Source: Flavobacterium tegetincola DSM 22377
GTDB lineage: Bacteria > Bacteroidota > Bacteroidia > Flavobacteriales > Flavobacteriaceae
NCBI RefSeq assembly: GCF_000425485.1
Contig: NZ_KE384386.1
Span: forward strand, 124,001 to 188,000
Length of the DNA stretch: 64,000 nt
Direction: 5' to 3'
Shown: piece by piece, positions 44,911 to 63,041 of the stretch
Layout: every line of letters starts with the position of its first letter
How positions within the stretch are numbered: the first letter of the stretch is position 1
Position numbers and translations under genes: made by a program
Notes under the pieces: model-generated
Told to the model about the DNA's origin: nothing
Databases searched by the model: none
What the model saw: the letters and a program-made list of their open reading frames with translations, nothing else

Positions 44911-45753
44911 CTATTGAAAAACTTCTTCTAATTGTCCATCAAAACTGGCAAAAACCATAGAAGGATGTGAATCTTGGTGAAAAATAGTACCTTCTTTATC
45001 AATGGCAATTGCTCCCGCAAATCCGTCAATGGGTGTCAATTCCTGAAACGTTTTTGCAAACGCCTCTTTAATCGAAAATCCATCCGTAACCCGTGTAACA
45101 ATTTTTGCTGCAACTGCACCACTTACAATATCTTCACCAACACCTGTTAAGCTTACGCCGCAAAATGCATTTGCGTAATTTCCAGCTACCGTTGCCGAAT
45201 CTGAAATACGACCCGGAACTTCAAATCCCTTTCCTCCCGTTGAAGTGGCTACCGCAATTTTGCCGTCTTTATCAAAAGCAACGCAGCCCACGGTTCCTTG
45301 ACCATTTCCTTCTAGTTTCGCCTCATATTCTGATCTTCTTTGCGGAATTTCTGTAGAGTATACTTCAAATCCATTTTTGCGAGCAAAAGCAGTTGCACCA
45401 CTTCCACCCAACATTTTATCTTCGCAATCCAAAAGTTGTTCTGCAACAAAAACTGGATTTTTTACCTCTTCTATATTGATCACACCACACATTTTTAAAG
45501 AACTTCCATCCATTATAGAAGCACTCATTCTGATCTTTCCGTCACTTTGAATTTGAGAACCAATTCCAGCATTGAACAGCGGGTCGTTTTCGAGTAAACT
45601 TACGGTGTATACAACTGTTTGCAATGCAGAATGATTTTCCATGTAAGAAAATCCGTCCTTAACTATACGTAAAAGTGCTTCCTGTTTGGCAATTTTAGTC
45701 TCGTTGCTAGTTGATGATTCCGAAAAAAAACCGCCGTGAATAATTATTTTCAT
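44911..45753 (-). CDS. iaaA: isoaspartyl peptidase / L-asparaginase (Ntn hydrolase)
   Basis: 280 residues, no signal peptide, so cytoplasmic. The autoprocessing site is GQGTVGCVA with Thr154 as the N-terminal nucleophile after cleavage. Substrate-binding blocks are NAGIGSQIQSDGKIRMSASIMDG and GKGFEVPGRISDSATVAGNYA (Arg-Asp). The enzyme cleaves beta-aspartyl dipeptides. Together with cyanophycinase, encoded 44 bp upstream on the same strand, it would hydrolyse the beta-Asp-Arg dipeptides released from cyanophycin to Asp and Arg. The pair is thus a degradation unit next to cphA. Confidence 0.92.
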   Translation of the reverse strand: MKIIIHGGFFSESSTSNETKIAKQEALLRIVKDGFSYMENHSALQTVVYTVSLLENDPLFNAGIGSQIQSDGKIRMSASIMDGSSLKMCGVINIEEVKNPVFVAEQLLDCEDKMLGGSGATAFARKNGFEVYSTEIPQRRSEYEAKLEGNGQGTVGCVAFDKDGKIAVATSTGGKGFEVPGRISDSATVAGNYANAFCGVSLTGVGEDIVSGAVAAKIVTRVTDGFSIKEAFAKTFQELTPIDGFAGAIAIDKEGTIFHQDSHPSMVFASFDGQLEEVFQ

Positions 45754-45797
45754 AATAAAATTTTAAATGTAAAGGCACTTAATTCAATTCTGAATCC

Positions 45798-46697
45798 TTA
45801 ATCGTCTGTTGGAACGCCTAAATCATCCGCATATTGCGACGTATGAATGTGCATTTTGTGCGTCGTTAAATCATACGTATCAAATTTACTCAAAACATGC
45901 GTTACCAGATGATTGATTGAAATAGGTTTGCCCAATTCAATTTGAGTCAAGTTGGTATCCTTAATTTCGCGTCCGTCAACCAAAATAACCAGTCCTGAAC
46001 CGATAGCCTCCATCGTTACGTTATTGGTAATCAAAAGTCCTGTATCTTCACCCAAACCAATACCTAAAATTCTTGGATTACTGACCACTGACTGAAATAA
46101 CCTTCCGATTCTACCTCTTTGTACAAAGTGCGTATCGATGATTACACCACCAATTAATCCCATTCCTCCCGTAATTTTCACTTCACCTTTAAGTAAAGCT
46201 TCACCACTACTTCCTTGATAAATCATGTTATTTGAAGCAGCTGCGGCACCAGCTGAAGTTCCAGCATAGATGAATTCTTCGGTTTGGTATTTCTTTAATA
46301 ACAAATCTTGAAAAAGAGTTCCACCTAAAATTGAAGTCAATCGCAATTGATCTCCACCGGTTACCATAATCACATCGGCAACCTCTAATCGTTTGATAAT
46401 TTCAGGATCTGCAGCTTGTTCTCTCTTTGTAATATCAAAAACGCCTACATTTTTGGCACCCAAATGCGCCAAGGCTTTGACATATTCTGCTCCAACTTCT
46501 TTTGGAATTTTTGAAGCCGTAGTTAATATTTCAATTCTTGATTCGTTATTATGTTTTGATTCTTCAATAAGTCTTCTTAAAATTCCCGTTTCAAAAAAGT
46601 TAAGATTTTTAGTCACATCTTGATCAAAATGCCCCTCTGTAAAACTTCCTTTGTCAACTGCACCACCTATTATTATTAACTTTCCTTTGATATCCAT
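45798..46697 (-). CDS. cphB: cyanophycinase
   Basis: 299 residues from the ATG at 46697; the longer frame upstream is rejected because MDIKGKLIIIGGAVDKG is the normal start. The serine nucleophile is in GTSAGAAA (Ser148). The substrate-pocket segment DTHFVQRGRIGRL (near residue 200) and GLGEDTGLLI near 225 are conserved in CphB. No signal peptide, so it is the intracellular type that trims stored cyanophycin to beta-Asp-Arg dipeptides. It is divergent from cphA and probably co-transcribed with the isoaspartyl peptidase gene. Confidence 0.96.
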   Translation of the reverse strand: MDIKGKLIIIGGAVDKGSFTEGHFDQDVTKNLNFFETGILRRLIEESKHNNESRIEILTTASKIPKEVGAEYVKALAHLGAKNVGVFDITKREQAADPEIIKRLEVADVIMVTGGDQLRLTSILGGTLFQDLLLKKYQTEEFIYAGTSAGAAAASNNMIYQGSSGEALLKGEVKITGGMGLIGGVIIDTHFVQRGRIGRLFQSVVSNPRILGIGLGEDTGLLITNNVTMEAIGSGLVILVDGREIKDTNLTQIELGKPISINHLVTHVLSKFDTYDLTTHKMHIHTSQYADDLGVPTDD

Positions 46698-46957
46698 GTG
46701 TTTTTCCTTAATTTGTAAAAGTAACGTATTTTTAAAAAACTCCAAATTTAAGCGTACCTTTTATGAACAATTCTCAATATAAAATGCCAATAATGCGGTT
46801 TGAGAAATCAATAGTGGAAAAAATTATGTTTGGCACAAAAAAAAAATAATTTATACGAATTAATATATTTTATTTAACTATTTTTCTAAAATAAAACTTT
46901 ATCAAAATTAAAGCGGCAAAATAATACTTTCAATAACCCAAAATAAATGCAAATTCA

Positions 46958-49582
46958 ATGAAAATTTTAAAAATTCAAGCTTTAAGAGGTCCTAACATAT
47001 GGAGTATCTCGCGCAAAAAACTGATTCAAATGCGATTGGATTTGGAGGAAATCGAACAATTTCCTACCGATAAAATTGATGGATTTGCGGAACGAATCGA
47101 AACTATGTTTCCTACTATGTATGAACACCGATGTTCTGAAGGTGAAGCGGGCGGTTTTTTCTCTCGTGTAAGACGCGGTACTTGGATGGGACATGTTATT
47201 GAACATATTGCTTTGGAAATTCAAACATTAGCAGGAATGGAAACCGGCTTTGGTCGAACTCGTGAAACAAAAACTCCTGGTACATATAATGTTGTTTTCA
47301 GTTACACTGAAGAAACCGTTGGAATGTTTGCCGCTGAATCATCGGTACGAATTGCAGAGGCTTTAATAGCTGGAACCGAGTATGATTTAGAAGCAGACAT
47401 ACAAGAAATGCGTGAAATTCGAGAACGCGTTCGACTTGGGCCAAGTACAGGAAGTATTGTGGAAGAAGCGGTTGCAAGAGATATTCCGTGGATAAGATTG
47501 AGTACAAATTCATTGGTTCAATTGGGTTACGGAATCAATCAAATGCGTTTTCAAGCCACAATTACGTGCAAGACGAGTAACATCGCCGTTGATATTGCTT
47601 GCAATAAGGAAGAAACAAAACGAATGTTGGATCAAGCATCCGTGCCTGTTGCCCAAGGTAGCATTTGTGTTGATCTAGAAGATTTAGAAGCGACTGTGGC
47701 AAAAATTGGTTATCCAATCGTACTAAAACCTTTAGATGGAAATCATGGAAAAGGAGCTTCAATCAATATTACAAACTGGGAAGATGCCGCTGAAGGTTTG
47801 ATTTATGCTCAAAAATACAGCAGACGTGTTATCGTTGAGAAATTTATCACCGGTTTTGATTTTAGAGTTCTAGTCATTGATAACAAACTTGTTGCAGCTG
47901 CTAAAAGAGTTCCCGCACATGTTATTGGTAATGGAAAATCGACTATTCAAGAGCTTATTGATGTTACCAATGAAGATCCGCGTCGTGGCTATGGACATGA
48001 AAATGTGCTGACTCAAATTGATGTGGACCGCGATACTTTGGATTTACTGAAAAAAGCAGAAATGACACTTGAGACTGTTGCAAATAATGGTGAAATTATC
48101 TATTTAAAATCAACAGCAAATTTAAGTACCGGCGGAACTTCAGTGGATGTGACTGATATGATGCATCCCGAAAACATATTTTTAGCAGAACGAATTTCAA
48201 GAATTATTGGCCTTGACGTTTGTGGTGTGGATATTATGGCTGAAAATTTAACCCAACCTTTGAAAGAAAATGGCGGTTGTATTTTAGAAGTAAATGCGGC
48301 ACCAGGATTCAGAATGCACTTGGCTCCATCGGAAGGATTGCCAAGAAACGTTGCTGCACCCGTAATTGACATGCTGTATCCTCCGGGAAAACCAAGTAGA
48401 ATTCCAATTATTGCTGTAACGGGAACCAACGGAAAAACAACTACGACCCGACTTTTAGCACATATTGTAAAAAATAATGGCTATAAAGTAGGTTTCACTA
48501 CTTCCGATGGAATTTATGTACAAAATCATTTGATGGAAAAAGGCGACACTACGGGACCACTTTCGGCTGAATATATTTTGAAAGATCCAACAGTAGAATT
48601 TGCAGTATTAGAAACAGCTCGAGGTGGAATTCTACGATCAGGAATGGGTTTCAGTCGTTGTGATATTGCGGTAATTACCAACATCCAAGAAGATCATTTG
48701 GGTTTGAACGACATTCATAATTTAAAAGATTTGGCACGTGTTAAAAGTACAGTTGCCGAAAGTGTAAAAAAAGACGGTTGGGCGGTTTTAAATGCCGATG
48801 ATCCAGAATGTGTAGAAATTGGATCCAAACTAAAATGCAATGTAGCTTACTTTAGCATGGACGAAGATCAGCCTTTTGTGAAAAAACTTTCTAAAGAAGG
48901 TAGAATTGTAGCTGTTTTTGAAAATGGATTTTTAACGGTTAAGAAAGGCGAATGGAAAATTCGTGTAGAACGCGTTTCCCATGTGCCACTTACACTTGGT
49001 GGTAAAGCAAAATTTATGATTGCAAATGCACTTGCAGCTACATTAGCCAGTTATTTGTGGGGATTCAAAACAGAAGACATCAGCCTTTCGTTACAAACTT
49101 TTATACCTGGAGTTGCACAAACGCCGGGACGAATGAATATTTTCGAATTCAAACGTTTCAAAGTATTAATCGATTTTGCACACAATCCTTCTGGATATTT
49201 AGGCGTGGAAGATTACTTGAGTTCAGTGGAAGCCAACAAAAAAATTGGAATTATAGCTGGCGTGGGTGACCGTCGCGACGAAGATATTATGGAATGTGCT
49301 AAAATTGCCGGCAGAATGTTTGACCATATCATCATTCGTCAGGAAAAACATTTAAGAGGTAGAACCGAACAGGAATTGATTGATTTAATTTTAGAAGGTA
49401 TTGCTTTGAGTGGCAATAACGTGACTTATGAAATTATACCTAAAGAAGTGGAAGCCATCAGACATGCGATCAATAGTGCTGAAGAAGGTACTTTTATCAC
49501 CGCTTTAAGTGATGTGGTTACAAATGCAATTGAAATTGTGCAACATTATTTGGACAAAGAAAATGAAGAAGGTGTAATTTAA
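46958..49582 (+). CDS. cphA: cyanophycin synthetase
   Basis: 874 residues, full length for CphA. An N-terminal domain (about 1-160, starting MKILKIQALRGPNIWSISRKKL) is followed by an ATP-grasp module (about 210-480) that adds Asp, and a Mur ligase-like module (about 485-874) with the P-loop AVTGTNGKTTTT near residue 486 and AHNPSGYLG near 742 that adds Arg to the side chain. The product is the nitrogen and carbon store multi-L-arginyl-poly-L-aspartate. Both modules look intact. The gene is flanked by the degradation pair on the other strand and by a strong terminator. Confidence 0.97.
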   Translation: MKILKIQALRGPNIWSISRKKLIQMRLDLEEIEQFPTDKIDGFAERIETMFPTMYEHRCSEGEAGGFFSRVRRGTWMGHVIEHIALEIQTLAGMETGFGRTRETKTPGTYNVVFSYTEETVGMFAAESSVRIAEALIAGTEYDLEADIQEMREIRERVRLGPSTGSIVEEAVARDIPWIRLSTNSLVQLGYGINQMRFQATITCKTSNIAVDIACNKEETKRMLDQASVPVAQGSICVDLEDLEATVAKIGYPIVLKPLDGNHGKGASINITNWEDAAEGLIYAQKYSRRVIVEKFITGFDFRVLVIDNKLVAAAKRVPAHVIGNGKSTIQELIDVTNEDPRRGYGHENVLTQIDVDRDTLDLLKKAEMTLETVANNGEIIYLKSTANLSTGGTSVDVTDMMHPENIFLAERISRIIGLDVCGVDIMAENLTQPLKENGGCILEVNAAPGFRMHLAPSEGLPRNVAAPVIDMLYPPGKPSRIPIIAVTGTNGKTTTTRLLAHIVKNNGYKVGFTTSDGIYVQNHLMEKGDTTGPLSAEYILKDPTVEFAVLETARGGILRSGMGFSRCDIAVITNIQEDHLGLNDIHNLKDLARVKSTVAESVKKDGWAVLNADDPECVEIGSKLKCNVAYFSMDEDQPFVKKLSKEGRIVAVFENGFLTVKKGEWKIRVERVSHVPLTLGGKAKFMIANALAATLASYLWGFKTEDISLSLQTFIPGVAQTPGRMNIFEFKRFKVLIDFAHNPSGYLGVEDYLSSVEANKKIGIIAGVGDRRDEDIMECAKIAGRMFDHIIIRQEKHLRGRTEQELIDLILEGIALSGNNVTYEIIPKEVEAIRHAINSAEEGTFITALSDVVTNAIEIVQHYLDKENEEGVI

Positions 49583-49815: not shown

Positions 49816-50532
49816 TTAATCCTTTTTTTCCTTCCAAGCTTTAAATCGAATTAAAGTATTGGGGTCAATTGGTGGATAAATTCCAAAAATTGATTTTCCA
49901 GCTACAACTTCTTCCATTACAAAATTTTCAAATAAAGTCATTTGCAACGATTCTTCAGCTACATCATCGGCAATTTCTTGCGGGATAACAATTACACCTT
50001 CGTCATCTCCAACAATTACATCTCCTGGAAAAACAGCAACATCACCACAACCAATTGGCTCATTTAATGCAATAGCTTGATGCAAAATTAAATTTGTTGC
50101 AATACTCGTTCGTTGATGGTACGAGTGAATTTCGAGCGGTTCAATTTCACTAGAATCTCTAAAACCGCCATCGGTTACAATTCCAGCAACGCCGCGTTTC
50201 ATTAGTCTTGTAATTAAAATAGAACCTGCAGAAGCCGCTCGAGCATCTTTTCTACTGTCAATTACAAGTACACTTCCTTCCGGACAGTCTTCGATAGCTA
50301 CTCGTTGAGGATGTTTTAAATCCTCAAAGACTTTTAACGAATTAAGATCTTCTCGTGCAGGAATATAACGTAAAGTGTAAGCTTCTCCGACCATATTTCC
50401 TTTACCTTTTTTTAAAGGAAAAACATTTTGAATACAAAGGTTTCTAAATCCTCTTTTAAACAAACAAGTAGATAAAGTTGCGGTACTTATTTGTAGCAAT
50501 TTTTCTCGCGTTTCTTGTCGTAATTTTTTCAT
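49816..50532 (-). CDS. RraA-family protein (class II aldolase-like), alginate locus
   Basis: 238 residues. The RraA/HMG-aldolase fold is shown by GIVTDGGFRDSSEIE near residue 137 (the DG..RD site that binds metal and pyruvate in the aldolases) and GDVIVGDDEGVIVIPQEIAD near 185. The N-terminal STATLSTCLFKRGF also fits. No signal peptide. Family members are regulators of RNase E or aldolases cleaving 4-hydroxy-2-oxo acids. Its position divergent from PL6, with a promoter whose -33 region lies in the predicted uronate operator, points to a metabolic role in uronate breakdown, for example cleavage of a keto-deoxy sugar acid. That is inference. Confidence 0.85.
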   Translation of the reverse strand: MKKLRQETREKLLQISTATLSTCLFKRGFRNLCIQNVFPLKKGKGNMVGEAYTLRYIPAREDLNSLKVFEDLKHPQRVAIEDCPEGSVLVIDSRKDARAASAGSILITRLMKRGVAGIVTDGGFRDSSEIEPLEIHSYHQRTSIATNLILHQAIALNEPIGCGDVAVFPGDVIVGDDEGVIVIPQEIADDVAEESLQMTLFENFVMEEVVAGKSIFGIYPPIDPNTLIRFKAWKEKKD

Positions 50533-50581
50533 TATTCTAAAAATTAACAGTTTTATTTTCCTAAATTCTTTTTTTATCCTA

Positions 50582-50621
50582 CAAATATATATATATTTGG
50601 TAATCCAAACTGGTTAACCAA
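50582..50621. promoter_or_regulatory. palindromic divergent promoter plus hexuronate-type operator (RraA gene / PL6)
   Basis: CAAATATATATATATTTG (50582-50599) is an 18-bp perfect palindrome containing a minus-strand -7 element (50582-50589) and a plus-strand -7 element (50592-50599). Seven bp further, AAACTGGTTAACCAA (50607-50621) is the operator shared with the susC and gntR promoters. It covers the PL6 transcription start and the expected -33 region of the divergent gene, so one bound regulator could block both. Confidence 0.75.
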
Positions 50622-50634
50622 TTTAATTTTTAAT

Positions 50635-52968
50635 ATGATTGCAAATAAATTACTCTTAATTCTCTTTACTTTCTTTATAATTAATTCAAATTCAATAGAT
50701 ACAAAACAGTTTCTTGTTAAAGATAAAAAAGAATTTAACGAAGCTGTAAAAAATGCTAAACCGGGCGATGAAATTATTTTAGCAAATGGAGTTTGGAACG
50801 ATACTGAACTTGTTTTTAAACAAAAAGGAACCAAAGAACAACCAATAACACTTCGAGCAGAAGAAAATGGTAAGGTAATTTTAAGTGGTTTGTCAAATCT
50901 AAGTATTTCTGGTGAATACTTAATTATTAAAGGTCTCGTTTTTAAAAATGGCTTCACTCCTACTACTGAAGTTATTTCTTTTAGAACGAATAGTAAAAAT
51001 TTAGCCAACAATTGCCGTCTTACTGAATGTGTGATTGATAATTACAGCAATCCTGAACGCCACGAGTCGGATTATTGGATATCGGTTTACGGAAAAAATA
51101 ATCGAATCGACCACAACCACATAGAAGGTAAGCGAAATTTAGGTGTAACAATGGCAGTTCGCTTAAACTCTGTTGAAAGTCAAGAAAATAACCATAGAAT
51201 TGACCATAATTACTTCGGACCACGACCTAATTTAGGTTCAAATGGTGGAGAAACGTTACGAATTGGAACGAGTCATTATTCGCTAACCAATTCTAAAACA
51301 GTTGTCGAATACAATTACTTTGACCGTTGCAACGGCGAACACGAAATCATTTCTAATAAATCAGGACAAAATACGTATCGATTCAATACTTTTTTTGAAT
51401 GTACCGGAACGTTGACCATGCGTCATGGAAGTCAAACTCATGTGGAAGGAAACGTTTTTATTGGAAACAATAAACCCAATACAGGAGGAATTCGTGTTAT
51501 TAATGGACAACAAACAGTGATTGACAACTATTTAATCGGATTGACAGGTTATCGTTTTAGAGGTGCTTTTGTAATAATGAATGGAGTTCCTAATTCAACC
51601 ATCAACCGATACCATCAAGTAAAAGATGCCGTTGTTAAAAATAACACGTTTGTAGATTGCGATTATATTCAATTTTGTGCAGGAAGCGATGCAGAACGAA
51701 GCGCTACTCCAGAAACATCGTTCTTTGAAAATAATGTGGTTTTCAATCAAAAACGTGATTCTGTTTTCACTATTTATGATGACATCAGTGGAATTACTTT
51801 CGAAAAAAATATAATTTCTCCAAACGTTATTACTGGAATTGACAACGGTTTCAAGAAGTCAAAAATGACTTTAGTAAAAAACAAAATGGGTTATTTAGTC
51901 CCAAAATCCAAGGACATTAAAAAATTATTTGAAGTTAATAAAGATATTGCCACTAAAGAAAACACAGGTGCTAGCTGGTATTCGAAAGCGTATAAAGATG
52001 TTGCATTCAACTCGGGTAAAATCATAAAAGTTGCAGCTGGAATCAATACTTTATTTGATGCCGTAAAAGATTCCAATCCTGGTGATATTATTGAATTGAC
52101 TTCATCCGAAGTTTATTTGGTTACCAAAACAATTTCACTGCAACATCCTATTACTATAAAAAGTACTTTGGATAAAAAACCAACACTTTTGTTCGAAAAG
52201 AAATCCTTTTTTCAAATTGAAAATGGCGGAAGTCTTTCCTTAGATGGCGTAATTATTGACGGTAAAGAATCTCCTGATTATGCTGGAAATGCTGTAATTA
52301 CGACTAGTAAATATTCAATGACGCACAATTACACGATTCATATTAACAACTGTGTTTTTCAAAATTTAGATGTTAATCATACGTTCGATGTAATTCAAGT
52401 ATTTAAAAATACGTTTGCAGATGAAATCAAAATTGAAAATTCAACATTCAAAAATATCAATGGAAACATCATGCTTTCTGATAAAGAAATTGACGATATT
52501 GGGGTTTACAATGCAGAAAATGTGATTTTGAAAAACAATATTTTTACAAACATTCAAGGTGCTGTTTTAAATTTATACCGTGGAGGAACGGACGAAAGTA
52601 CGTTTGGACCCTATATAGAAGTGGACCATTGCGTTTTCAATAATGTAGGCTTTGGAAAAAGAAACAAAACGGAAAGCAGTATTTCCACTTATGGCGTTCA
52701 GGTAAATTACATTAAAAACTCTATTTTTGAAAATTGCAAACCCGTTAAAATGTATTTAGTAGTAGGCGAACCAATTGTTGAAATTGAAAATACAAATTTC
52801 TACAAAACAGCCGATATGCAAATCACAGGTGATCAAAAATTCAATACAAACAATATTACTAAAATAAATCCAAATTTTGAATCAGATGCTTCATTTAAGC
52901 TGAACCAAAATTCTCCTTTAAAAGGAAAAGCGACAGACGGATTAGATATTGGTTTACTTTCAAAATAA
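50635..52968 (+). CDS. polysaccharide lyase family 6 alginate lyase
   Basis: 777 residues with a signal peptide (1-21). Two parallel beta-helix domains are visible (about 30-400 and 440-770). The first has the PL6 active-site blocks NGGETLRIG (N203, R208) and TMRHG (R263, H264), and FIGNNKPNTGGIRVINGQQT further on. PL6 enzymes cleave alginate by beta-elimination, many preferring MG or G-rich stretches. The signal lacks a lipobox, so the enzyme is periplasmic or secreted. It starts the PL6-PL17-kdgF operon, 6 bp before PL17, with a regulated promoter. Confidence 0.94.
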   Translation: MIANKLLLILFTFFIINSNSIDTKQFLVKDKKEFNEAVKNAKPGDEIILANGVWNDTELVFKQKGTKEQPITLRAEENGKVILSGLSNLSISGEYLIIKGLVFKNGFTPTTEVISFRTNSKNLANNCRLTECVIDNYSNPERHESDYWISVYGKNNRIDHNHIEGKRNLGVTMAVRLNSVESQENNHRIDHNYFGPRPNLGSNGGETLRIGTSHYSLTNSKTVVEYNYFDRCNGEHEIISNKSGQNTYRFNTFFECTGTLTMRHGSQTHVEGNVFIGNNKPNTGGIRVINGQQTVIDNYLIGLTGYRFRGAFVIMNGVPNSTINRYHQVKDAVVKNNTFVDCDYIQFCAGSDAERSATPETSFFENNVVFNQKRDSVFTIYDDISGITFEKNIISPNVITGIDNGFKKSKMTLVKNKMGYLVPKSKDIKKLFEVNKDIATKENTGASWYSKAYKDVAFNSGKIIKVAAGINTLFDAVKDSNPGDIIELTSSEVYLVTKTISLQHPITIKSTLDKKPTLLFEKKSFFQIENGGSLSLDGVIIDGKESPDYAGNAVITTSKYSMTHNYTIHINNCVFQNLDVNHTFDVIQVFKNTFADEIKIENSTFKNINGNIMLSDKEIDDIGVYNAENVILKNNIFTNIQGAVLNLYRGGTDESTFGPYIEVDHCVFNNVGFGKRNKTESSISTYGVQVNYIKNSIFENCKPVKMYLVVGEPIVEIENTNFYKTADMQITGDQKFNTNNITKINPNFESDASFKLNQNSPLKGKATDGLDIGLLSK

Positions 52969-52974
52969 AAAATA

Positions 52975-55236
52975 ATGATTGTTTTTAAAAATATAATTAC
53001 CACATCTGCTTTTGTACTTTGTTGCTTATTTGGTATTCAAACTAAAGCTCAAAATCACCCCAATTTGATATTGACGAAGGCAAGTGTGGCAGAAATGAGA
53101 AGTCAACTCGGAAAAGTAGCACTTTTTGACAAAAGTCTTGCAGATGCAAAAACTGAAGTTGATGCTGTTATTTTGATAGGAATTATTGTGCCGATTCCGA
53201 AAGATATGGCGGGAGGTTTCACACATGAACAGCATAAAAAAAATTATACGATTCTTCAAAAAGCGGGTGTTTTATATCAGTTGACACAAGATGAAAAATA
53301 TGCTGTTTACATTAAAAATATGCTTTTCGCTTATGCAAAAATGTATCCTACTTTACCTTTACATCCACAAGAACGCTCCTATGCGAGAGGAAAATTATTC
53401 TGGCAAGCCTTAAACGACGCCAATTGGTTGGTTTATGTAAGTCAATCATACGATTGTGTTTATGACTATTTATCTAAGAAAGACCGCATCTATTTGGAGA
53501 AAAACTTATTCAAACCTTTTGCTTCATTTTTATCTGAAGGCTCGCCACAATTTTTCAATAGAATTCACAACCACAGTACTTGGGGAAATGTAGCCGTTGG
53601 TATGATTGGTCTGGTAATGAATGATGAAAAATATGTTGATTATGCCTTGAATGGTTTAAAAATAGATAACATAAATCCAAATGCTAAAGACAATGACGGT
53701 GGGTTTATTAAAGTGGCAGGACAAAAAACGGGCTTTTTAGCCAACCTTGACGACCCGTTTTCACCTGATGGTTATTATACAGAAGGACCATATTACCAGC
53801 GTTATGCAATGTATCCCTTTATGACTTTTGCGGTAGCGCTGCAAAATAACCGACCTGATTTAGAAATATTTGACCATAAAAATGGCGTACTTATCAAAGC
53901 CGTTTACGCTTTACTGAATTTAACCAACTTCAATGGAGAGTTTTTCCCTTTGAATGACGCTCAAAAAGGAATGTCCATTTATTCTAAAGAATTAGTAACC
54001 GCTGTAGATATTGCATACTATTTCGGGAATAAAGACACTTCCCTCCTTTCGGTAGCTGCAAAACAAGGAAGAGTACAATTGGATGATGCCGGTTTCGCTG
54101 TTGCAAAAGCGATTCAGGAAAAAAAGCAAACTCCATTTATAAAAAAATCCCTGAATTTATCAGATGGTTCAGATGGAACACAAGGTGGAATCGGTATTTT
54201 ACGTGCTCAAAAAGGCAGCGATGATTTTAGTTTGGTTTTAAAATACTGTTCACAAGGTTTGAGTCATGGGCATTACGACAAACTTTCGTTTTCTTTTTAT
54301 AACAATGAAAATGAGATTTATCAAGATTACGGATTGGCTCGTTTTGTAAATATTGATCAAAAAAATGGCGGAGGTTATTTGAAAGAAAATAATTCTTGGG
54401 CCAAACAAACCATCGCTCATAATACAATTACGCAAGACGAAACTTCTCATTTTGACAATGATTTTGAAACGGGAAGTAAGTTTGCATCCGAACTAATTTA
54501 TTTTGACAGCAGTAATCCAAAACAACAAGTAATTTGCAGCAAAGAAACTAATGCTTATCCTGATACCGAATTAAAACGTACCATGGCATTGTTAACGCTA
54601 GAAAATTTTGAAAACCCAATTTTGATTGATTTATTTTCTATTACTTCGAAATCAACCCATCAATATGATTTACCTTATTATTATTTAGGTCAAATGATTG
54701 ATGCTAATTTCAAATATGAAACTCCAACAGTATTAGAACCTTTGGGAACTAAATTTGGGTACCAACATTTATGGAAAGTAGGTCATTCCACTTTGGAAAA
54801 AAATGAAACCACTCAGCTAACATGGCTTTCCAATTCGAAATTCAAGACAATAACAGCTGCATCTAAAAGTGGCGATGAAGTTATTTTTGCGAAAATTGGA
54901 GCCAACGACCCAAAATTCAATTTACGAAACAACCCAGCAATTATTTTCCGAAGAAAAAATGCCAAAGACACACGATTCTTAACAATTACAGAAACACATG
55001 GAAGTTATAGTCCAGTTACTGAAAGCGCTAAAAATGCATTCAGCAGTATTAAAGAATTGAAAATAATCCATGAAGACGAAAATTATGTGGTTGTTTCAAT
55101 TTTAGATAAAAAAGACAAGAGTACACTCGTATTTTTAACGACAAGTAAAGCAGAATCAACTACAAAACATAATCTGACTATTGATACTAAAGAGTATGAA
55201 TGGACGGGAACATTATTAATTAAAACTTTAGAATAA
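52975..55236 (+). CDS. polysaccharide lyase family 17 oligoalginate lyase
   Basis: 753 residues with a signal peptide (1-25, ending TKAQ). The alginate-lyase alpha-toroid (about 40-370) carries RIHNHSTWGN (N199, H200) and YYTEGPYYQRY (Tyr273/274), the residue types used in PL17 catalysis. The C-terminal heparinase II/III-like beta-sheet domain (about 395-750) has GLSHGHYDKLSFSFY, with His residues for metal binding and catalysis. Such enzymes act exolytically on oligoalginates in the periplasm and release unsaturated monouronates. kdgF follows after 1 bp, consistent with immediate use of this product. Confidence 0.94.
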   Translation: MIVFKNIITTSAFVLCCLFGIQTKAQNHPNLILTKASVAEMRSQLGKVALFDKSLADAKTEVDAVILIGIIVPIPKDMAGGFTHEQHKKNYTILQKAGVLYQLTQDEKYAVYIKNMLFAYAKMYPTLPLHPQERSYARGKLFWQALNDANWLVYVSQSYDCVYDYLSKKDRIYLEKNLFKPFASFLSEGSPQFFNRIHNHSTWGNVAVGMIGLVMNDEKYVDYALNGLKIDNINPNAKDNDGGFIKVAGQKTGFLANLDDPFSPDGYYTEGPYYQRYAMYPFMTFAVALQNNRPDLEIFDHKNGVLIKAVYALLNLTNFNGEFFPLNDAQKGMSIYSKELVTAVDIAYYFGNKDTSLLSVAAKQGRVQLDDAGFAVAKAIQEKKQTPFIKKSLNLSDGSDGTQGGIGILRAQKGSDDFSLVLKYCSQGLSHGHYDKLSFSFYNNENEIYQDYGLARFVNIDQKNGGGYLKENNSWAKQTIAHNTITQDETSHFDNDFETGSKFASELIYFDSSNPKQQVICSKETNAYPDTELKRTMALLTLENFENPILIDLFSITSKSTHQYDLPYYYLGQMIDANFKYETPTVLEPLGTKFGYQHLWKVGHSTLEKNETTQLTWLSNSKFKTITAASKSGDEVIFAKIGANDPKFNLRNNPAIIFRRKNAKDTRFLTITETHGSYSPVTESAKNAFSSIKELKIIHEDENYVVVSILDKKDKSTLVFLTTSKAESTTKHNLTIDTKEYEWTGTLLIKTLE

Positions 55237-55237
55237 T

Positions 55238-55585
55238 ATGATCACATTTGGAGCAAGTAAAGCGTTTATTATAGGAGACGAAATGGAATGGGAAACCGTT
55301 GGCGATGGCGTGAAAAGAAAAATAATGGGTTATGACGACACCATAATGTTGGTAAATGTCGACTTTAAAAAAGGTAGTATCGGTCCGATACACCAACATT
55401 ATCATGCTCAAGTTACTTATGTAGTTAGTGGACAATTTGAAGTTACAGTTGGCAAAGAAACGAAACTCTTAAAAGCAGGCGACTGTTTTTATATCGAACC
55501 TCACATAATGCATGGAGCAGTTTGCCAAGAAGACGGAATGTTAGTGGATGTTTTTAGTCCCATTCGAGAAGATTTCATGCAGTAA
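55238..55585 (+). CDS. kdgF: KdgF-type cupin, unsaturated uronate linearisation
   Basis: 115 residues, one cupin barrel, no signal peptide visible. Metal ligands are likely in IHQHYHAQVTYVVSG (H52, H54, and Gln58) and IMHG (H92). This is the size and motif pattern of KdgF, which converts 4,5-unsaturated uronates from alginate or pectin into 4-deoxy-L-erythro-5-hexoseulose uronate (DEH). It starts 1 bp after the PL17 stop, so the monomer-forming and ring-opening enzymes are made together. Without a signal peptide it should act in the cytoplasm. Confidence 0.93.
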   Translation: MITFGASKAFIIGDEMEWETVGDGVKRKIMGYDDTIMLVNVDFKKGSIGPIHQHYHAQVTYVVSGQFEVTVGKETKLLKAGDCFYIEPHIMHGAVCQEDGMLVDVFSPIREDFMQ

Positions 55586-55785: not shown

Positions 55786-55828
55786 TATATTTGTGAAACC
55801 AAACTGGTTCACCAATTTGGTTTACCAA
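55786..55828 (+). promoter_or_regulatory. susC promoter with tandem hexuronate-type operators
   Basis: The -7 element TATATTTG (55786-55793) is followed 7 bp later by AAAC and two head-to-tail copies of TGGTTNACCAA (55805-55815 and 55818-55828), 13 bp apart. Each copy is a near-palindrome. The element-to-operator spacing equals that at PL6. This is the best-preserved operator in the locus. Confidence 0.78.
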
Positions 55829-55856: not shown

Positions 55857-58800
55857 ATGCAGTTAAAATCAAAAATTTCAATTATTGTTATGCTCTTTTT
55901 TAGTGTAGCACTTTTTGCACAGGAAAACTTTACACTGACAGGCACTGTGATTTCTAAATCAGACAACATGACTTTGCCTGGTGTAAATGTCATTGTGGTC
56001 AGTTCAAAGGTAAATGCAGTTACTGATATCGATGGGAAGTTTCAAATTCTTGTAAAAGAAGGAGATGTTATTCAATTGACGTATATCGGTTACGAAACAA
56101 AACTTGTTCCCATTTTGAATAAATCCGCAATCGATGTAGTACTCGTGGACATTGCAAATAACTTAGATGAAGTGGTTGTAATTGGTTATGGTTCCCAGAA
56201 AAAGAGCCATTTAACCGGTGCCATTTCAAAATTAACCAATGAAAAATTAGATCAAGTAACCGTTTCACGGGTCGAAGACGCGTTAATCGGTAAGATTTCG
56301 GGTGTAAATATTCAAGCTACCAATGCAGAAGCAGGTGCCGCTCCTACAATTACAATTAGAGGAGTTGGATCTATAACTGCTGATTCTGGACCTGCTGTAG
56401 TTGTAGACGGTATAATTGTAAGTTCTGATTTTCTTGGAAATATGAACATGAATGATATTGAATCTTTTGAAGTTTTAAAAGATGCTGCATCTGCTGCAAT
56501 ATATGGTAGTGAAGGTGCAAATGGTGTAATTCTTATTACTACAAAAAGTGGTAAAGCTGGAAAAACGAAATATTCTTACGAAACCTATACAGGACGAAAG
56601 GAAGCATTTGGTAGTAAAAACTATAGCAAAAGCGTTAAGGATTGGGCTGAATTTGAATTAGCAGAATCAGGTTCACTTTCAGAAACAACACAGTACATGC
56701 AATTGTTATCTACCGCAACTGGAACTGATCGCGATTGGCAAGATGTATTTTTTGATGGCGGAAATATTACCAGTCACTCCTTTGCTGCTAGAGGTGGAAC
56801 TTCAGATACAAAATTTAGTACTTCATTACGCTACTTACATGACGAAGGAGTGGTTTTAACTGACGATTATAAATCGTATACTGCTAGAATTAAAGTAGAT
56901 ACTAAACTTAACAGTAAACTTGATTTTGGAATTAATTTTGCACCTTCTTACACTAAGAGAAGAGCATTGCCAACGTCCATTCACAATCCATTAAGACAAG
57001 CGCCGTGGTTGCCTATTTATCACACTGCAGAAACGCTTCAATTTATCAATACTAGCAACTATCCAAATGTTGGAATTGGAGATTATTTTATTGAAGATCA
57101 TTTACTATCTCTTGATTTAGATGGAAATGGATCGTCAACCAGACCTCGAACTACAGGAGATGCAAATCCTTACGCTCAATATGTGGAAAGAGAACATTAT
57201 GAAACTGAAACTACCATGTTAGGATCTACTTACTTAAGCTATGAAATTATAAAAGGTTTAGTAGCCAAGTCCTCGCTAGGAATTACTTTTGACCATAGAG
57301 AACGATCAAGATGGGATGGAACCAAACACCACTCAGCAGGTGCTTCTAGAGCAAATTACTTCCAAGAAAACAGATACCGTCTAAGAATTATCTCTGACAA
57401 TACTTTAAATTACACTAAAACGTTTAATAATCACGATTTCGATATTTTAGCAGGAATCACCGCTCAAACAAGACGATCTGAATCCACTGCTATTAATGGC
57501 TCCGGCTTTAAAAATGATTTGTTAAAAAATATTATGGGAGCTGACCCAACAACTATTACTGGTGCAGAGGTCAATACTGTCTTAAATAAAGTGGGCTATT
57601 TTGGGAGAATAAATTATGCCTTTGACAACAAATATTTATTGAGTGCATCATTTAGAAGAGATGGAAGTTCCGTTTTTGGTTCAAATTCAAAATATGGTAA
57701 TTTCCCGTCTATTTCGGCAGGTTGGAACATTGCTAAAGAAAACTTCATGAGAGAAAACCCCGTTTTCAATAGTTTAAAATTTAGAGCAAGTTATGGTTTT
57801 ACAGGTTCAGAAAACTTTAATGTTGGAAGTGATGTCATTAACGCTTGGCCTTATTTATCTCTACTTGGAAATACGAACGCGATAGTTGATGGAAATCTTG
57901 CCACTGGTTTTTCACCGTTAAATATTGCAAATACTTTATTGCAATGGGAAGCTTCTCAGGAATATACGCTTGGTGTTGATTTTGGTATCTTAAAAAATAA
58001 AATTTCAGGATCCTTCAATTATTATAAGAGAACAAGTGATAACTTACTTTTGGAAAATCCAGTGTCATACGTTACCGGATTTGATTTTGGAATCATTAAT
58101 TTAGGAGAAGTCGTTAACTCCGGTTTGGAATTAGACATTACTACAAAAAACATTTCGACACCTAATTTTTCTTGGACTTCCACATTGGTTGCTTCTACAA
58201 ATAAAAATGAATTAACATCCTTTGGTGATTCGGATGGAGCGCTTCTAGAGGACAATTACGGAAGAAATTCACAATGGATTAATTTGGTTGGCAACCCAAT
58301 ATCTTCTTTTTACGGATACGTAGTTGACGATGAATTTCCAAACACTTATTGGACCTCGCCTTACTTCCCCATCGCTGGTAAATCGCAAGATGTAATTGTA
58401 AAAGATTTAAATGGCGACGGAATAATTACCAATGCAGATAAAACTATTTTAGGAAATCCTTATCCTGAATTGGTTTGGAGTTTTACAAATGAATTTAAGT
58501 ACAAAAGTTTTGATTTTAGCATAATGATTCAAGGGAGTCATGGTGCAGAAGTTAAAAATGTAGGCGACGAATACTTTTACTCGGAATGGCTTGGAGCAAC
58601 CATCAGTCCAGCTCAAATGGTTGCCGATGGAGTTGTTTCTGACGCGTCCTTTGTTCAAGCGCGAGTATTAACAAATGACATTGTTCAAAGTGCTGGCTAT
58701 TTTTCATTGCGTAATATAAATATTGGATACAATCTGCCAGCTGCTACAGCGGCAAAAATTGGCTTAAGTGGCGTACGAATTTATGCAACAGGACAAAATT

Positions 58801-58940
58801 TACTTTACATTACAGACAAAGGATACAACGGTTTTAATCCTGAATTTGTAGACGATAGTAATCCAAGAGCTTACGGAGCACAAAGAGGTGGAACACCATT
58901 ATTTAGAACTACATCACTTGGTTTAAACATTAACTTTTAA
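55857..58940 (+). CDS. SusC/RagA-type TonB-dependent receptor for alginate oligomers
   Basis: 1027 residues with a signal peptide (1-22, ending LFAQ). A carboxypeptidase-regulatory-like domain (about 25-105, FTLTGTVISKSDNMTLPGVNV) precedes the plug (about 110-235, with VVVIGYGSQKKSHLTGAISKL, VDGIIV and the GSEGANGVILITTKSGK block) and a long beta-barrel ending in a C-terminal Phe. The periplasmic STN domain is absent, so it is a pure transporter rather than a signal transducer. With SusD it should import alginate oligosaccharides using TonB energy. First gene of the SusC-SusD-PKD-PL7 operon. Confidence 0.95.
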   Translation: MQLKSKISIIVMLFFSVALFAQENFTLTGTVISKSDNMTLPGVNVIVVSSKVNAVTDIDGKFQILVKEGDVIQLTYIGYETKLVPILNKSAIDVVLVDIANNLDEVVVIGYGSQKKSHLTGAISKLTNEKLDQVTVSRVEDALIGKISGVNIQATNAEAGAAPTITIRGVGSITADSGPAVVVDGIIVSSDFLGNMNMNDIESFEVLKDAASAAIYGSEGANGVILITTKSGKAGKTKYSYETYTGRKEAFGSKNYSKSVKDWAEFELAESGSLSETTQYMQLLSTATGTDRDWQDVFFDGGNITSHSFAARGGTSDTKFSTSLRYLHDEGVVLTDDYKSYTARIKVDTKLNSKLDFGINFAPSYTKRRALPTSIHNPLRQAPWLPIYHTAETLQFINTSNYPNVGIGDYFIEDHLLSLDLDGNGSSTRPRTTGDANPYAQYVEREHYETETTMLGSTYLSYEIIKGLVAKSSLGITFDHRERSRWDGTKHHSAGASRANYFQENRYRLRIISDNTLNYTKTFNNHDFDILAGITAQTRRSESTAINGSGFKNDLLKNIMGADPTTITGAEVNTVLNKVGYFGRINYAFDNKYLLSASFRRDGSSVFGSNSKYGNFPSISAGWNIAKENFMRENPVFNSLKFRASYGFTGSENFNVGSDVINAWPYLSLLGNTNAIVDGNLATGFSPLNIANTLLQWEASQEYTLGVDFGILKNKISGSFNYYKRTSDNLLLENPVSYVTGFDFGIINLGEVVNSGLELDITTKNISTPNFSWTSTLVASTNKNELTSFGDSDGALLEDNYGRNSQWINLVGNPISSFYGYVVDDEFPNTYWTSPYFPIAGKSQDVIVKDLNGDGIITNADKTILGNPYPELVWSFTNEFKYKSFDFSIMIQGSHGAEVKNVGDEYFYSEWLGATISPAQMVADGVVSDASFVQARVLTNDIVQSAGYFSLRNINIGYNLPAATAAKIGLSGVRIYATGQNLLYITDKGYNGFNPEFVDDSNPRAYGAQRGGTPLFRTTSLGLNINF

Positions 58941-62277: not shown

Positions 62278-62317
62278 TATATTTATCGTCTTAAAACTGG
62301 TTAACCAATCTGGTTTT
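62278..62317 (+). promoter_or_regulatory. gntR promoter with hexuronate-type operator
   Basis: A variant -7 element, TATATTTA (62278-62285), is followed 8 bp later by AAACTGGTTAACCAATC and the half site TGGTTTT (62294-62317). The same operator as at PL6 and susC, so the regulator gene is probably autoregulated. Confidence 0.68.
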
Positions 62318-62324
62318 ACTTAAA

Positions 62325-63041
62325 ATGAGCATTATGAAGTTAGAAACTCTTTCAAAAACTGATAATCAAACGATTCAGAAAGATTTGATTAGAAAAATAA
62401 AAGATCTTATAAATTTCAAAAATTTGGAGCCAGGTGATAAACTTCCAAGTGAACGTATGTTGTCTGAGAAGTTTGAAGTCTCTAGAAGTACGGTTAGAGA
62501 TGCCATTCAAAAACTAGAGTTTTACGGCATTTTAAAATCCATTCCTCAAAGTGGTACTTTCGTAGCAGAAATTGGAGTTATTGCCATGAACGGAATGATT
62601 GATGATATTTTAAGATTAGATGATCCAGATTTCAAATCATTGGTAGAAACTCGAATTTTATTGGAATTAAAAACCGCACGTTTGGCCGCTTTAAGAAGAA
62701 CTCCAGAAGATTTAATTCAGATGGAAGCTGCGCTTCAAGCATATACTGATAAAGTTATGAATGGTAAAGATGCCGTTCAAGAAGACTTACTATTTCATTT
62801 GGCTATTGCAAAAGCGAGCGGAAACAGTTCAATGAATACGTTCATGCTTACCATTACCCCACAGATAATTACAAATTTTCAAAAATACCACGTTTGTGAT
62901 GACAATCAAGCTTTTCTTGGAATCGCAGAGCATACCGCAATTTTTGAAGCCATAAAAAACCAAGACACACAAGAGGCAAAGTTAAAAATGAAAGCACATT
63001 TTAAATCTTTATACCAATATTGCTACAATACAAGTGATTAA
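62325..63041 (+). CDS. GntR family (FadR subfamily) regulator of the alginate locus
   Basis: 238 residues from the ATG at 62325; a second ATG at 62334 is an alternative. The winged helix-turn-helix (about 20-85) has LEPGDKLPSERMLSEKFEVS and RSTVRDAIQKLEFYGILKSIPQSGTFV, the GntR signature. The C-terminal FCD ligand domain (about 100-235) includes RILLELKTARLAALRR and FHLAIAKASGNSSM with potential metal-binding His. FadR-subfamily regulators bind palindromes of the form TGGTNNNACCA and respond to acids such as uronates. Three matching operators in this locus make it the likely regulator of all three units. Confidence 0.94.
   Translation: MSIMKLETLSKTDNQTIQKDLIRKIKDLINFKNLEPGDKLPSERMLSEKFEVSRSTVRDAIQKLEFYGILKSIPQSGTFVAEIGVIAMNGMIDDILRLDDPDFKSLVETRILLELKTARLAALRRTPEDLIQMEAALQAYTDKVMNGKDAVQEDLLFHLAIAKASGNSSMNTFMLTITPQIITNFQKYHVCDDNQAFLGIAEHTAIFEAIKNQDTQEAKLKMKAHFKSLYQYCYNTSD

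Follow-up and report, generated by a model that had tools for sequence, protein, structure and literature searches.

Bidirectional promoters were worked out with the near-symmetric -10 element TATAAT, and the AusR regulon of Zobellia galactanivorans is reportedly the subject of Dudek et al. 2020. In the bidirectional promoters of E. coli and Salmonella described by Warman, Grainger and colleagues, as the available excerpts of the two papers present them, the symmetry of the core allows the polymerase to sit in either orientation, though in only one of them at any moment, and these promoters often produce mRNA (PMC12825309, PMC10268837). The E. coli versions have a shared -10 element, with starts that lie mostly 18 bp apart, separations of 10 and 23 bp being also common (PMC12825309). 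The housekeeping promoters of the Bacteroidota are described, again in excerpts, as having TTTG at about -33 and TAnnTTTG at -7 (PMC7366714, PMC9723704), with the -7 box spanning -12 to -5 (PMC9723704). According to the available part of its description, the Zobellia AusR protein is a GntR-family repressor from an alginate locus; it binds its operator in one, two or three copies, and its complexes with DNA are inhibited by intermediates of alginate degradation (PMC7874173).

We consider here a divergent pair of genes in a 64,000-nucleotide stretch of DNA from Flavobacterium tegetincola DSM 22377, hereinafter the window. An RraA-like gene on the minus strand and a PL6-type gene on the plus strand are separated by an intergenic gap of 102 bp (50533-50634), which holds a perfect 18-bp palindrome, CAAATATATATATATTTG, at 50582-50599. 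This palindrome contains two opposed copies of the complete TAnnTTTG element TATATTTG: one at 50582-50589 on the minus strand, directed towards the RraA-like gene and found in relatives mainly if the left gene is divergent, and the other at 50592-50599 on the plus strand, directed towards the PL6 gene. The gap between them is 2 bp. The 18-bp palindrome with a complete element per strand, 2 bp apart, had been claimed in an earlier note on this DNA and is confirmed by the window sequence. The core is near-symmetrical and, with a full TAnnTTTG on each strand, could serve both of them. It comprises two complete elements with 2 bp between them rather than one shared core element, and hence represents a variant and not the E. 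coli form of the bidirectional promoter.

With the -7 boxes placed at -12 to -5, we predict transcript starts at 50604 on the plus strand for the PL6 gene and at 50577 on the minus strand for the RraA-like gene. These predicted starts are 27 bp apart and would give leaders of 31 nt and 45 nt, respectively. The -33 position of the PL6 promoter, as taken from relatives, falls at 50569-50572 on the plus strand and has TTTT here instead of TTTG. On the leftward side the only TTG is that in the arm of the operator unit O1 (see below), 16 bp from the -7 element, a spacing largely fixed by the search pattern; none occurs at 19 bp. We count this poorly spaced leftward -33 against the reading of the palindrome as a two-way promoter. 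A search of 50400-50800 found neither promoters of the sigma-70 type nor intrinsic terminators.

The PL6-type lyase gene (50635-52968, plus strand; PF14592, 4.5e-120) opens an alginate locus, PL6 being the name that we take to belong to this Pfam family. It is followed on the same strand by a gene for an oligoalginate lyase, presumably of the PL17 type (52975-55236; NF042990 at 672.9 bits, under its cut-off of 1400), and by a cupin gene (55238-55585; PF07883), whose product we assume from its position to be KdgF-like. Thereafter come genes for a SusC-like transporter (55857-58940, plus strand, recognised by eye from its translation), a SusD-like protein, a lipoprotein and a PL7-type lyase, these four being named by eye, and then for a GntR/FCD regulator and an MFS transporter. 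Past the end of the window the locus continues with SDR, sugar kinase, aldolase and second PL7-type lyase genes (by eye). The divergent RraA-like gene (49816-50532, minus strand) codes for a protein of 238 aa (PF03737, 3.7e-30; NF006093), whose best solved relative is 5x15. This protein shares 64% identity with a relative from Mesorhizobium, its close relatives within the family being 59-69% identical, and an RraA-based scan of genome contigs retrieved two loci, one from Mesorhizobium and one from Octadecabacter. Just left of the RraA-like gene, 44911-49582 is a cyanophycin locus with two genes read by eye as those of an isoaspartyl peptidase and a cyanophycinase, together with a gene for a cyanophycin synthetase (TIGR02068).

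The sequence and its relatives point to two tandem operator units on the PL6 side of the palindrome. The first, O1 (TTTGGTAATCCAAA, 50596-50609), overlaps the right -7 element and the predicted start and, counted along the leftward promoter, lies at -19 to -32. The second, O2 (AAACTGGTTAACCAATTT, 50607-50624, with its core TGGTTAACCA at 50611-50620), lies at -30 to -47 by the same count and spans +4 to +21 of the predicted PL6 transcript; the TGG..CCA cores of the two units begin 13 bp apart. The earlier note had placed a single operator here, overlapping both the PL6 start and the -33 region of the opposite promoter. An operator is indeed found near the palindrome, and O1 does overlap the PL6 start; it is made up of two units rather than one, and a properly spaced -33 is missing from the leftward promoter. 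Since O1 and O2 together cover the right -7 element with its start and, on the leftward promoter, positions -19 to -47, one repressor complex could block both directions.

Operators of the same kind occur elsewhere in the locus. A second promoter of the regulon on the susC side (55786-55827, plus strand, with its -7 element at 55786-55793) has three units (55790-55803, 55805-55814 and 55818-55827) and no opposite -7 element at 2 bp. The GntR gene is itself preceded by a copy of TGGTTAACCA at 62298-62307, which suggests autoregulation. The operator thus comes as one copy plus a weak second at 62298, as two at 50596-50624 and as three at 55790-55827. The perfect TGGTTAACCA is found three times in the genome, always in the alginate locus: at 50611, at 62298 and about 3 kb past the window, preceding the second PL7-type gene. 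TGGTTNACCA, a looser form of the operator pattern, shows no genome-wide enrichment (13 and 9 matches vs 33 and 32 for the reversed pattern), and this we likewise count against the two-way reading. Three-unit arrays with a 13-bp step are seen both at 55790-55827 and in the locus L097, where a -7 element stands at each outer end of the array, the two facing one another across it.

The candidate for the protein that binds these units is the GntR/FCD regulator (62325-63041, plus strand; PF00392 and PF07729), whose solved relatives are PdhR and NanR and whose gene shares the locus with the lyase genes. The operator pattern TTTG-N5-CCA-N3-TGGT-NN-ACCA is present in 103 of the 397 genomes of the family, the reversed pattern giving a single match, and likewise 103 of the 397 encode a protein closely related to the GntR regulator of the window (E <= 1e-60). 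Both occur together in 102 genomes and neither in 293, with the pattern alone in one (G610) and the gene alone in another (G416); hence, regulator and operator pattern are paired. This pairing and the character of the locus fit the described AusR, suggesting that the GntR protein is an AusR-like repressor.

We consider it probable that the palindrome forms the centre of a two-way promoter and that an AusR-like repressor bound to the two tandem units shuts both directions, which an inducer would release together. RNA polymerase carrying the housekeeping sigma factor of the Bacteroidota would bind in either orientation via one of the two abutting -7 elements: leftward binding would start the RraA-like gene at about 50577, and rightward binding the PL6-led alginate operon at about 50604. 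When alginate products are absent, the GntR repressor (62325-63041) would occupy the two units, 13 bp apart, covering the right -7 element with its start and -19 to -47 of the leftward promoter, and so close both directions; the inducer would then free both.

The evidence that bears most directly on this proposal comes from relatives. We fetched 153 loci (L139-L291) from 93 genomes, namely 37 from among the matches listed for the operator pattern, 55 of the 77 covered by a further search, these being the ones with matches listed, and G787, which was added because its RraA locus was known; 20 further genomes of the family with a pattern match lie outside this sample. The comparison set holds 260 distinct sites, each with a -7 element and two tandem operator units, from 61 genera. 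An exact CAAAnnTA placed 2 bp left of the -7 element is found at 19 of the 34 sites classed as divergent, that is, with a divergent gene within 120 bp (a rule chosen after a first look at 108 sites, with genes called by a simple ORF picker and not curated annotation), vs 3 of the 226 others (Fisher p 7e-17). These three comprise 2 of the 171 codirectional sites and 1 of the 51 at which an opposite-strand left gene fails the 120-bp or right-gene rule; none is among the 4 for which no left gene was called. When one site is drawn per genus and class, 500 draws give a median p of 1e-9 and a worst of 5e-8. That the second -7 element tracks the divergent gene across genera is therefore borne out, the exact left element being present in 16 of the 24 genera that have divergent sites.

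The 2-bp register of the two elements also stands out. Over spacings of 0-24 bp, the 34 divergent sites have 19 left -7 elements at 2 bp, one at 4 bp and none elsewhere. At these sites, which were chosen independently of the left half, the left half shows a mean pairwise identity of 0.76, as against 0.48 for the same place in the 171 codirectional sites; for the 8 bp just outside it the value is 0.35, and the right -7 element (0.93) and the operators (0.86) reach values partly set by the search pattern. A TTG precedes the right -7 element by 19 bp at 20 of the 34 divergent and 85 of the 171 codirectional sites. The first left gene at the 19 exact sites is RraA 8 times, one with a twin-arginine start 10 times and neither of these once, and counted by the type of that gene, the exact left -7 element is present at 8/17 RraA sites, 10/12 of the twin-arginine type and 1/5 others. 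The twin-arginine gene of L159, the one checked, codes for a xylose-isomerase-like TIM barrel. In L223 a gene of this same family lies instead on the right side; hence, the two-sided promoter occurs in differing gene arrangements. The predicted leftward leaders at the 19 exact sites are 32-60 nt. As these sites are related, their likeness may partly reflect descent.

The main competing account is that of a single directional promoter, in which the right -7 element drives the PL6 gene, the left half, an AT-rich upstream element, is palindromic by accident, and the RraA-like gene starts elsewhere. In keeping with it, A/T runs at -9 to -6 are also seen in the codirectional promoters of the set, and the exact left -7 element is absent at 15 of the 34 divergent sites (3 with one mismatch and 12 with two or more). 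Four of the five divergent sites in the window's own genus are among these, the exact element being present at just one, the window's own. Three of those four are RraA loci (L206, L211 and L216), showing that close relatives manage without the consensus. Both the 15 sites and the pattern in the genus are counted against the two-way promoter. What the directional account leaves unexplained is the dependence on gene orientation: the bases peculiar to an opposite-strand -7 element, namely the C at -10 and the A-T-A at -5 to -3, positions reckoned from the right -7 element, are much commoner in divergent than in codirectional sites, and the exact left element is present at a mere 2 of the 171 codirectional sites. 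The latter two, which have it without need, are themselves counted against the two-way promoter. On balance we regard the purely directional account as unlikely.

Another possibility is that the palindrome is the binding site of an additional dimeric regulator acting at divergent AusR promoters, and it is indeed both perfect and conserved. Yet each half of it is a sigma-factor consensus, the codirectional promoters have the right half without the left, and unrelated pairs of divergent genes have this 2-bp geometry too, with different inner bases, which makes such a regulator very improbable. These other pairs, found by recurrence, also speak for the two-way promoter. The 18-mer CAAAACTAACTATTTTTG is present in at least 14 of 41 genomes, the window's own among them (L001 at 1501-1518, and L292-L304), where its flanks are conserved too and AusR operators are lacking. 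In all 14 a proS-like start lies on one side (the family was checked for L001) and a divergent lipoprotein-like start, recognised by eye, on the other; in L296 the ORF picker sets the start of the right gene ahead of the motif. All three genomes fetched for CAAATATAGCTATATTTG, from three genera and with unlike flanks (L305 1543-1560, L306 865-882 and L307 1537-1554), have it between divergent genes, at about 20 bp from each called start codon; in L307, the one checked, it is flanked by a rhomboid gene and a lipid A acyltransferase gene. CAAATATAGTTAGATTTG is between divergent genes in both genomes fetched, those of L308, which was checked, being proline dehydrogenase and 3-dehydroquinate synthase. 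CAAATTTATGTATTTTTG separates the genes for a SAM hydroxide adenosyltransferase and PhoH in L310, with the same left gene in L311. These 18-mers were selected for recurrence among the matches listed, and their divergent placement, not their identity, is the result. Not all recurring 18-mers are so placed: CAAATGTAAATATGTTTG, which the listed matches show for G000 and G431, falls within a gene in the former. A recurring 22-mer, CAAATTTACGATTATATATTTG, with opposed -7 elements 6 bp apart, is found among the matches listed for several genera (e.g., G414:C2:284450-284471).

Abutting -7 pairs with a constant gap of 2 bp and starts 27 bp apart could form a general class of bidirectional promoters in Bacteroidota of the Flavobacteriaceae type, maintained by selection at several gene pairs; we hold this tentatively, at a little less than even likelihood. 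The class would take in, with the same reserve, the alginate regulon and the proS/lipoprotein-like, rhomboid/lipid A acyltransferase, proline dehydrogenase/3-dehydroquinate synthase and SAM hydroxide adenosyltransferase/PhoH pairs. The 2-bp geometry shows no clear general excess over the whole of the 41 family genomes (97 matches vs 77 for the reversed pattern, with 71 vs 84 for a 6-bp geometry), which we count against the two-way promoter of the window.

The bare pattern is also what would speak for chance, i.e., for an AT-rich spacer that happens to resemble two -7 elements. Matches to CAAANNTANNTANNTTTG number 4 in the 3.77-Mb genome vs 2 for the reversed pattern, which is near the chance frequency, and 2 of the 4 are inside coding sequence; with at most one mismatch the window has 3, the average in shuffles being 1.34 and 17 of 100 shuffles reaching 3. 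Opposed -7 pairs are somewhat in excess in the window's own genome, with 73 vs 45 reversed for gaps of 0-20 bp and 41 vs 27 for gaps of 0-12 bp. Eighteen of these 41 sites, including that of the window, were classed, and 4 of the 18 lie between divergent genes, with gaps of 2, 2, 3 and 3 bp. In the fetched loci, 21 divergent intergenic stretches without AusR operators have 4 opposed pairs vs 0.38 in shuffles; one of these, that of proS, is at 2 bp, and four are too few to set a register. What is above chance is the position of the palindrome between divergent genes and its conservation, not the bare count. That it occurs in 16 genera in step with gene orientation leaves chance scarcely credible. 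The least probable reading, with a likelihood close to nil, is that the inverted repeats act in RNA: O2 does lie within the predicted PL6 leader, and a hairpin there was rejected, as 50604-50660 has a z of +1.03 and its folding is equalled or bettered by 175 of 200 shuffles.

The palindrome is most likely a compact two-way promoter under one repressor, and its second half is kept in relatives mainly where a second gene diverges. The idea of a compact bidirectional switch raised in the earlier note is in this respect largely upheld by the comparison across relatives, the anatomy of its operator having been corrected. Its further assertion that the two promoters must compete is not supported: in the available part of the E. 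coli study, the five bidirectional promoters tested all had too little basal activity for this, and competition could emerge once one direction is strongly activated (PMC12825309). Competition between the two promoters here is plausible.

As the Bacteroidota -7 element TAnnTTTG is not itself symmetric, two-way promoters in this group need another geometry. The locus suggests one such geometry, which follows gene orientation across many genera and is tied to a single repressor of alginate use, and it thereby offers a clear test of whether polysaccharide loci use the orientation of the polymerase as a point of control. The literature searched (titles and the beginnings of abstracts listed for open-licence papers) yielded no paper on two-way promoters in the Bacteroidota. 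Bidirectional promoters and AusR are already known, and the abutting -7 geometry is new in that the open-licence literature searched gave no description of it. The regulator resembles the Zobellia AusR in being a GntR-family protein of an alginate locus with one to three operator copies, a likeness drawn from the available description of AusR. The near-palindromic PM2 motif of B. thetaiotaomicron, with elements at -10 and -30 in the excerpt available, appears to be different from the palindrome seen here. Both halves fit the -7 element of the Bacteroidota housekeeping promoters, so far as these are described in the available excerpts, and the relatives mostly have a TTG that precedes the right one by 19 bp; unlike those ordinary promoters, two opposed copies stand here in a fixed register. 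As in the excerpts on the bidirectional promoters of E. coli and Salmonella, a symmetric core could let the polymerase bind both ways. The predicted separation of the starts, 27 bp, is just outside the 7-25 bp counted in the available part of PMC10268837, and, unlike the shared -10 element described for E. coli, two complete Bacteroidota -7 elements abut here across a gap of 2 bp.
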